DNA from: a virus
Reading direction: 5' to 3' (one strand)
DNA length: 33,405 nucleotides
Virus record (IMG/VR): IMGVR_UViG_3300043470_003072
Span: 1 to 33,405 of that record
Position 1 is the stretch's first letter; every line of letters begins with the position of its first letter. Shown one piece after another: positions 3,239 to 11,331 of this stretch. A model generated the notes under the pieces. That model searched no databases, was not told the DNA's origin, and worked only from the letters and a program-made list of their open reading frames with translations. The position numbers were made by a program, and so were the translations under genes.

Positions 3239-3270
3239 AAAAACCGTTGCAGTGATGTAACGGTTTTTTT
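3239..3270 (+). terminator. Rho-independent terminator
   Basis: Stem AAAAACCGTT (3239-3248) and AACGGTTTTT (3259-3268) with a 10-base loop and a continuing T-run. It ends the capsid/tube unit and forms the left boundary of the 3271-3776 insert. Confidence 0.8.
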
Positions 3271-3271
3271 A

Positions 3272-3279
3272 TATCTTTG
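3272..3279 (+). promoter_or_regulatory. Host-type promoter (-7 box TATCTTTG)
   Basis: TATCTTTG matches TAnnTTTG exactly and lies immediately after the terminator. A TTG at 3247-3249, 22 bases upstream of the box, could act as the -33 element, within the terminator stem. No TGTCCTA is present. Transcription would start near 3286 and produce the structured leader before the gene at 3426. Confidence 0.5.
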
Positions 3280-3293
3280 AGTGTCGAAAAATT

Positions 3294-3428
3294 GAAAGTA
3301 TCATGAAAACACTTCCCATTACATTACAGCAGGAGTTCGTAAACCGCAAGGAACGACGGTTGACTATCTTTTGATACTTTCACCGGACAACTCCTGCTAC
3401 AATATAACTGTCAAAAGAAAGTATCATG
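3294..3428 (+). promoter_or_regulatory. Structured leader / candidate pseudoknot switch
   Basis: Ordered elements: S1a GAAAGTATCA (3294-3303), S2a AGCAGGAGTT (3328-3337), a small hairpin AACCG (3342-3346)/CGGTT (3357-3361), S1b TGATACTTTC (3372-3381), S2b AACTCCTGCT (3389-3398), S1c GAAAGTATCA (3417-3426). S1a with S1b and S2a with S2b are perfect 10-bp pairs that cross, giving an H-type pseudoknot. S1b can instead pair with S1c, which runs into the ATG at 3426 and would mask it. S1a and S1c are both followed by TG, so GAAAGTATCATG (12 bases) is repeated. This is a visible arrangement; its function is inferred. Confidence 0.55.
3303..3374 (+). CDS. Short upstream reading frame (23 aa)
   Basis: ATG at 3303 lies in the same GAAAGTATCATG context as the start of the downstream gene and opens a 23-codon frame (MKTLPITLQQEFVNRKERRL... 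then TIF) ending at TGA 3372-3374. The frame contains S2a and the small hairpin, and its stop codon is the first three bases of S1b. A ribosome finishing here would cover S1b and affect which pairing forms. It is in the same register as the downstream gene. No repeated codon suggests an amino-acid attenuator. It may be a leader peptide or merely a duplicated start context. Confidence 0.35.
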   Translation: MKTLPITLQQEFVNRKERRLTIF

Positions 3429-3728
3429 TATGATTATCAAGAACAAGTAAAAGCGTTCCTGCAGGAACATTTTACACCGGCTAGTGCCGAGACCGCCAAT
3501 GTAAAGATGACCACCGGTTCAATCCTGGAGTTTCTTTTTAAGACTTTCCCAAAGGATTGCATTTCTGATTATGAGTTGAATGATATCCTGAATCAATTAA
3601 AGTTTGAACGTGGTACTTTTATGGAAGTTGATTACAATGATAAAGAGCAATTGGTTAGCGGTTGGTTCTTATTTAATGAAACTATGGCACAGGCTTTATT
3701 GAAGACTAAACAAGTAGAAAGCGAATAA
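3426..3728 (+). CDS. Unidentified 100-aa protein behind the structured leader
   Basis: A soluble, acidic 100-residue protein with no signal peptide or membrane segment. Residues about 27-70 (MTTGSILEFLFKTFPKDCIS followed by a helix and a strand) could be a winged-helix-like fold, which would fit a regulator or assembly chaperone, but I recognise no family. It is the only gene between a terminator/promoter pair on the left and a terminator/late-promoter cassette on the right, so it has its own transcription unit. Its start codon is the 3' end of the switchable GAAAGTATCATG element, suggesting translational control. Confidence 0.65.
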   Translation: MYDYQEQVKAFLQEHFTPASAETANVKMTTGSILEFLFKTFPKDCISDYELNDILNQLKFERGTFMEVDYNDKEQLVSGWFLFNETMAQALLKTKQVESE

Positions 3729-3750: not shown

Positions 3751-3774
3751 AGCCACCCAATCGGGTGGTTTTTT
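3751..3774 (+). terminator. Rho-independent terminator (CCACCC-AATC-GGGTGG)
   Basis: Stem CCACCC (3753-3758) and GGGTGG (3763-3768), loop AATC, then TTTTTT. Late promoter B begins 8 bases after the stem. An almost identical terminator with the same 8-base gap precedes promoter E at 21328. Confidence 0.85.
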
Positions 3775-10787: not shown

Positions 10788-10946
10788 TTGGAAAGTGAAA
10801 AAATTTTAAGGGACAGGCGTGCCAAAACGTTTAAAAATATTTTTCATAAAACAAAAAAATAGTATAAAATATTGATTTTTAGATTTTTAAATCAAAAAAA
10901 AATAGAATTCAGCATCTTAAATCCCTGATTTTCATTTAAAAATTAC

Positions 10947-10982
10947 TGTCCTATTTTTTGACCACTCGATTATTCAATTTTG
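10947..10982 (+). promoter_or_regulatory. TGTCCTA late promoter C
   Basis: TGTCCTA at 10947-10953 with T-run, and TTTG at 10979-10982 (context CAATTTTGAG), again exactly 32 bases downstream. The ATG at 10987 lies only 4 bases past the TTTG, so the message would be leaderless or almost so. It drives the portal/connector/fibre unit. Confidence 0.55.
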
Positions 10983-10986
10983 AGGT

Positions 10987-11331
10987 ATGAATAGTCAAGT
11001 AGTTTTTTTAAAGGAAGCCGTTAAGATTATTGGCCTTAGAGACAGAGAAGGAAAACCTTTTCCGTTTGATTTGCGTTACCGCACTTTCAATTCTCAAACT
11101 AAACAAGGCGGGAAAATGGTTGATTACAAAGGCGCAAAGTATTTACCGGATGCCAATCCAAACGCTTTACCATCACTTGCACCCGAAGCCGTTTTCGCTC
11201 GAGACAAATCTTCACGCAACCCGAACCACTTCGACAACAGAACCCGAAACATCGAACTGCCATCAGGCGAAATAAAAAAAATCCGCATTGACTTCATCAT
11301 TGAAATCAACGGCAATAAGGTCATTTACTAA
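10987..11331 (+). CDS. Unidentified 114-aa protein upstream of portal
   Basis: 114 residues, basic, soluble, with mixed strand/helix content. A central segment FPFDLRYRTFNSQTKQGGKM and the C-terminal IDFIIEINGNKVIY suggest a small beta-rich fold. It starts four bases after the promoter C core; the next in-frame ATG is codon 44, which would discard a well-formed N-terminus. It overlaps the portal start by one base (TAATG), so it is co-translated with the portal. I recognise no family; a minor head or portal-associated protein is the simplest guess. Confidence 0.6.
   Translation: MNSQVVFLKEAVKIIGLRDREGKPFPFDLRYRTFNSQTKQGGKMVDYKGAKYLPDANPNALPSLAPEAVFARDKSSRNPNHFDNRTRNIELPSGEIKKIRIDFIIEINGNKVIY

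Follow-up and report, generated by a model that had tools for sequence, protein, structure and literature searches.

A candidate C4-like bipartite antisense RNA family in phages of Bacteroidota

What kind of RNA is the leader of a 100-aa phage gene in which two perfect pairings cross, and in which a second copy of one strand runs into the start codon? The window, by which we mean the whole stretch of 33,405 bp analysed here, is the record of a temperate phage, with integrase, head protease, terminase and tape-measure genes. The leader has a terminator followed by a TATCTTTG box on one side and the 100-aa ORF with its own terminator on the other, and it thus heads a one-gene unit. The features needed below are the following.

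3241–3270 (+): intrinsic terminator of the upstream head operon, AAACCGTT..AACGGTTT plus a T run, by sequence
3272–3279 (+): Bacteroidota -7-type box TAnnTTTG, here TATCTTTG, a putative promoter
3282–3285 (+): a1, TGTC, upstream partner of a′, from box pairing
3294–3303 (+): b1, GAAAGTATCA, upstream target copy (S1a of the earlier note), from sequence and pairing tests
3303–3374 (+): 23-codon upstream ORF (uORF), its ATG overlapping b1 and its stop overlapping b′, from sequence and ORF comparison
3329–3397 (+): antisense RNA core, a three-way junction with closing stem 3329–3336/3390–3397, from covariance model, covariation and folds
3337–3356 (+): tetraloop hairpin UCGU-AAA-CC-GCAA-GG-A-ACGA, from fold and covariation
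3357–3385 (+): third arm, stem CGGU 3357–3360 / ACCG 3382–3385, from the covariation CAGC/GCUG, CAGU/ACUG, CGGU/ACCG
3372–3381 (+): b′, TGATACTTTC, antisense box in the loop of arm 3 (the competing strand), from pairing tests
3386–3389 (+): a′, GACA, the other antisense box, lying in the junction that links arm 3 to the closing stem, from pairing tests
3409–3412 (+): a2, TGTC, downstream partner of a′, from pairing tests
3417–3426 (+): b2, GAAAGTATCA, target copy running into the start codon, from sequence and pairing tests
3426–3728 (+): target gene, 100 aa, no Pfam or PHROG match, winged-helix-like model, from protein searches and model
3753–3774 (+): intrinsic terminator closing the one-gene unit, by sequence

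Crossing pairings and promoter region of the leader

The crossing pairings described in an earlier note are exact. GAAAGTATCA at 3294–3303 pairs with TGATACTTTC at 3372–3381 (11 bp when 3293/3382 is counted), and AGCAGGAGTT at 3328–3337 pairs with AACTCCTGCT at 3389–3398. The second GAAAGTATCA at 3417–3426, which runs into the ATG at 3426–3428, is likewise present, and the 12-base context GAAAGTATCATG is found both at 3294–3305 and at 3417–3428. The 23-codon ORF has its ATG at 3303–3305 and its TGA at 3372–3374, and the competing strand begins with this stop codon. Perfect 10-bp pairs that cross appeared in none of 5000 dinucleotide shuffles of the leader (3284–3430), while any 10-bp helix appeared in 46 of them, and nowhere else in the window do such pairs cross within 150 nt. 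Two features had been overlooked by the earlier reader, namely that the second pairing ('S2') closes a three-way junction with TGATACTTTC as the loop of its third arm, and that a 4-nt box, GACA at 3386–3389, has TGTC matches beside both GAAAGTATCA copies.

A box like TAnnTTT[G/A] is found 49–83 nt 5′ of the core in 9 of the 12 element sequences described below, and in the window a1 may sit at the extreme 5′ end of the transcript, coinciding with the transcription start or slightly preceding it. A different motif, exact TGTCCTAYTT, occurs at 152, 3777, 10947 and 21328 (+) of the window, ca 40–60 bp before the first gene of several operons. It is often followed by a TATTTG-like box, and it also precedes operons in most of the related phages examined (not in L029); it looks like a phage-specific, perhaps late, promoter element. 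The promoter of the leader lacks this motif, its only box being the host-type one, which may hint at synthesis of the RNA in lysogeny.

Relatives, core fold and covariation

As a single-protein query, the 100-aa ORF returned no relatives, and a DNA search against annotated phages gave no match. Homologues of the ORF were revealed through relatives of the capsid protein, and their alignment then yielded 12 viral loci and one Polaribacter genome. On inspection, 11 of the 12 viral loci are true homologues, L017 being an in-frame partial match, and the family has 13 members. Its structure model (mean pLDDT 81.5) has the order helix-strand-helix-helix-strand-strand-helix and is winged-helix-like; comparison with PDB structures gave nothing significant (best E 0.097). 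A DNA-binding regulator would be our guess for this protein.

The RNA element itself was located by pattern scans and two covariance models, R1 and R2, in the viral contigs L019, L020, L026, L029 and L048 and in the Flavobacteriaceae genomes L041, L042, L043 and, more weakly, L050. It is rare, with three strong matches in 400 Flavobacteriaceae genomes, none new in 398 genomes of the order and one weak new match in 395 of the class. The weak covariance-model matches L044–L047 and the pattern match L049 were left out of the family, and the high-GC matches of the pattern scans were discarded as chance. There is one copy of the element per phage record. We also observed, at 199–263 of L041 (reverse strand), a second and strongly diverged copy, L041b, in the same prophage region; its closing stem is AAAAGAG/CTCTTTT and its boxes again fit its own surroundings.

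Common to the 10 independent elements (12 sequences) is a core of 65–79 nt (lengths of 65, 69, 71, 72, 75 and 79 nt) that forms a three-way junction of a closing stem, a hairpin with a mostly GNRA-type tetraloop, and a third arm with the competing strand in its loop. The hairpin is usually UCGG-UA-GCG-GNRA-CGC-CCGA, and the third arm consists of a 4-bp stem (CAGC/GCUG, CAGU/ACUG or CGGU/ACCG) and a loop of 20–26 nt in most elements. The invariant bases belong to the stems or to the tetraloop. Independent minimum-energy folds give the junction in nearly all elements, the main exception being arm 3 of L029.

The relatives show compensatory changes, also in the closing stem (S2) and in S1. Double changes occur in 9 of 19 pairs in an alignment of nine sequences that was fitted to the covariance model, and a MAFFT alignment of six sequences, with five pairs changed on both sides, gives the same picture; all three helices are affected. 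In the nine-sequence alignment, the cells are paired in 98.2% of cases, compared to 30–49% in slid controls (25–49% over both alignments), and none of 500 shuffles reaches this value. In the leader of L016, the same core is found with S1 altered on both sides (GAAAACATCA / TGATGTTTTC). These relatives bear out one part of the earlier interpretation, in that the leader is structured and conserved and its variable strand can pair with an upstream copy or, alternatively, with the gene start.

Some homologues of the 100-aa gene lack the element, and their upstream regions deserve a separate mention. TGTCCTAYTT or a similar motif stands upstream in six such loci. The homologue leaders of L004 (10126–10249) and L003 (7921–8045) have another crossing fold, GCGAAACATT/AATGTTTCGC × CCCACGTAAG/CTTACGTGGG, with a loop that fits the gene start region (AAGATTC/GAATCTT in L003, GGAAAGT/ACTTTCT in L004), and they are possibly a second, unrelated type of antisense leader. 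In L009, L012 and L013, upstream of 2501, a short ORF (METATVLLGIAVLLTIADC..) takes the place of the RNA element and ends just before the start codon of the homologue. In L002, the gap that precedes the terminator and promoter of a 95-aa homologue contains a long hairpin, GCATTGTATTTAAC..GTTAAATACATTGC (10938–11003).

Antisense boxes, their targets and rival readings

In each element, the loop of arm 3 pairs with a site upstream of its own core (downstream of the promoter-like box in those elements that show one) and, with the exception of the L016 clade, also with the start region of the gene that it precedes. The match is perfect or nearly so in L026, where GTTCTGGTTCG matches CGAACTAGAAC at both places, in L041 (GTTCTGTTTCG) and in L043 (TGTGTGGTTCT). 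When judged against the regions of the other elements, the element's own upstream region is the best partner of this guide loop in 8 of 10 cases and its own gene start in 9 of 10. In a permutation test of the b′ targets, none of 20000 permutations reached the observed sums (p<5e-5 for each target).

The second box, a′, consists of the junction nucleotides after arm 3 (GACA, GAGA, GTCA, GGAA or GATA), and its partners are 4-nt boxes that precede the two target copies and are set off from them by a short A-rich spacer. Own pairing amounts to 26 of 28 positions for a1 and 27 of 28 for a2, with 4 of 5040 permutations in each case; the a′ and b′ boxes were recognised by inspecting duplexes, and this test of a′ is partly post hoc. 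In L026, L042 and L043, a2 overlaps the AUG itself, and for L050 no a′ match was established.

The b′ box is rewritten to fit its targets each time, and in most elements the adjacent a′ is rewritten too. In the clade of L016, L019 and L020, where no repeat flanks the core, the b1–b′ pairing is retained with a compensatory change, and the a2b2 target is only weak. The core precedes several unrelated genes, namely the 100-aa family and ORFs of 155, 53, 93, 49, 85, 91 and 96 aa. Since the same core is found before unrelated genes, the boxes are rewritten with each gene.

The genes on the upstream side vary as well. L016, L019 and L020 carry inserted accessory genes between head gene and element, a slot that is empty in the window. 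In L026 and L029, the gene immediately before the element, 140 nt upstream of the core, has a KilA-N or P22_AR_N antirepressor domain; near the elements, such genes occur only upstream and only in these two. HicA/HicB-like genes lie upstream of the element in L043, and lipoprotein- or membrane-like genes in L042, L048 and L050.

We consider it quite probable that the leader is a bipartite antisense RNA of the C4 kind, situated at the start of its own target transcript, and that most likely it represses translation of the downstream gene, here the 100-aa one. The core would present the 10-nt b′ in a loop and the 4-nt a′ in the adjoining junction, both matching a target, a2b2, which extends to the start codon of the following gene, and its duplicate, a1b1, at the 5′ end of the transcript. 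Pairing with a2b2 would block translation of the 100-aa gene, and pairing with a1b1 would compete with this and also cover the start of the small upstream ORF. Since transcription reaches b1 first, the nascent chain can have b′ bound to b1, which would leave the gene start open. Two events could then free b′, either a cut between b1 and the core, as happens in C4, or initiation by a ribosome at the uORF next to b1; the freed a′b′ would cover the start codon, whether in cis or in trans. If C4 is a guide, the core is probably excised or released in some other way, and would silence the gene in trans in lysogens and on an incoming phage. A point against the antisense reading is that the downstream gene is not an antirepressor.

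The leader could instead be a switch acting in cis only, without a separate antisense RNA, in which a ribosome at the uORF frees b′ so that the start is hidden, while otherwise b1 holds b′ and the gene is on. The uORF indeed starts right after b1, 26 nt before the core in the window and 29–32 nt before it in L026, L029, L041, L041b, L042 and L043, and in five of these it ends 38–47 nt past the ATG of the gene; transcription of b1 before b2 would also make a nascent-chain race natural. However, L016, L019 and L020 have no uORF and yet keep the b1–b′ pairing, the uORF of L048 is a mere start-stop, the uORF lengths are only mildly above the flank-shuffled expectation, and a complete compact three-way junction exceeds what such a switch needs. 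The translation coupling suggested in the earlier note may occur, in that most relatives have the uORF, but one clade has lost this frame while retaining the upstream pairing. We rank the antisense repressor above the cis-only switch, which we regard as unlikely though worth keeping in mind.

The ligand sensing proposed in the earlier note finds no support, since what would have to stay constant is rewritten from one phage to the next. A compact conserved junction in a 5′ leader with an alternative pairing is what a new riboswitch class could look like, but the invariant bases are only stems or the mostly GNRA-type tetraloop, the variable part follows the gene start, the downstream genes have no common pathway, and none of the Rfam riboswitch models matches the element, which makes this reading very improbable. 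Selection on the uORF peptide (QEFGSGNARQ and flanks), with the RNA folds being incidental, is just as improbable. In most relatives, the diverged L041b included, no stop codon interrupts the frame that passes through the core, but the double compensatory changes fall in all three helices, the core lengths given above are not in frame, and the L016 clade has no start codon. We give next to no credence to the repeats being the scar of an insertion or duplication, similar to target-site-like direct repeats around an inserted element. Direct repeats of ca 12–19 nt do flank the core in the window, L026, L029, L041 and L048, but a scar would leave two things unexplained, an internal strand that is complementary to the repeat and rewritten in every case, and a compensatory change in the L016 clade, where flanking repeats are lacking.

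Nor do mobile-element, ribosome-bypass, intron-like, CRISPR-like or type III toxin-antitoxin readings account for the strand that is rewritten to fit both the 5′ end and the gene start, and they were dropped. As to a tRNA-like closing stem, ARAGORN finds no tRNA and there is no conserved 3′ CCA.

Comparison with C4 and other known RNAs

The C4 RNA of P1/P7 (RF01695) shows the same order, that is, its own promoter, a1b1, a junction RNA and a2b2 at the start of a small gene. In P1, promoter P1c4 is followed by a1 (48255–48261), b1 (48269–48276), C4 (48343–48419), a2 (48423), b2 (48452) and icd (48470), and C4 folds into a closing stem, a hairpin with a UUCG loop and a third arm whose loop, UUCACUAAC, is b′, with CUGUCAA in the junction as a′. 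Alike are also the 70–80 nt three-way junction with a tetraloop hairpin, b′ in the loop of the third arm and a′ in the junction after it, and the core that is kept while the boxes differ between relatives (for C4, PMC5320573). Compared with the P1 C4 fold, the new element has three stems around the junction and the tetraloop hairpin; its arm-loop and junction boxes can pair with a target where a small downstream gene starts, and a second target copy lies between promoter and antisense RNA, as in the c4-a1b1 arrangement. Control of an icd-ant (antirepressor) operon is not seen, the downstream 100-aa gene having no Pfam or PHROG match.

C4 silences antirepressor synthesis (PMC12197685). It is cut from a longer transcript by RNase P, which in P1/P7 cleaves at the 5′ side of the closing stem to give a ~77-nt RNA; b′ blocks ribosome binding and a′ gives specificity, the variation being mainly in the target box (PMC5320573). 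No RNase P-type 3′ signal is conserved among the new elements. Their closing stem has 8 bp, compared to 17 in C4, and their tetraloop is mostly GNRA-type instead of UUCG. Unlike in C4, a short A-rich spacer separates the a and b targets, b2 reaches or lies behind the AUG, a uORF is frequent, and the downstream genes are not icd/ant. The hosts are Bacteroidota, whereas those of C4 are Proteobacteria, and C4 is listed for Proteobacteria and phages (Table 1 of PMC2864571). In the literature searched, whose coverage is incomplete, no C4-like RNA in Bacteroidota was found.

The Rfam C4 model (RF01695) has no match in the window or in seven related records at E<=10, and c4-a1b1 (RF03163) recognises neither the window nor its relatives; with P1 as positive control, the two models score 68.8 and 51 bits, respectively. 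Conversely, P1 C4 is not recognised by model R2. The statement in the earlier note that the leader belongs to no recognised class is therefore correct as far as the Rfam C4 model goes, but the anatomy is that of the C4 antisense RNA of P1/P7.

Two other kinds of RNA can be compared. Type III toxin-antitoxin RNAs (ToxIN) are likewise phage-associated, pseudoknot-capable RNAs located 5′ of a small gene, but the new element is single copy and not a tandem repeat, it has RNA-RNA boxes, and its 100-aa product has no family match. The preQ1-II and SAM-II pseudoknot riboswitches share the leader position and the alternative pairing near the start codon, but the element has no constant ligand-pocket sequence, and its pairing strand is rewritten with each gene.

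By its anatomy, the element would work like C4, but the models do not place it in the C4 family. Since neither covariance model finds the other RNA, and yet the anatomy is the same, we name the element a C4-like bipartite antisense RNA family of Bacteroidota phages. It is a separate, unlisted RNA family in viruses of Flavobacteria and relatives. We would give even chances to the further proposal that it is an independently evolved C4-type family, whose constant core is a retargetable cassette moved before unrelated phage genes, the boxes and both targets being rewritten together. The element would then be a natural modular scaffold whose target has been changed several times by evolution, and its boxes are predicted to reveal the silenced gene and the phages between which exclusion occurs. 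To our knowledge, C4 has until now been near-solitary as an antisense immunity RNA. The same design in Bacteroidota phages, without detectable homology, suggests that the arrangement a1b1 – junction RNA – a2b2 is a general phage solution.
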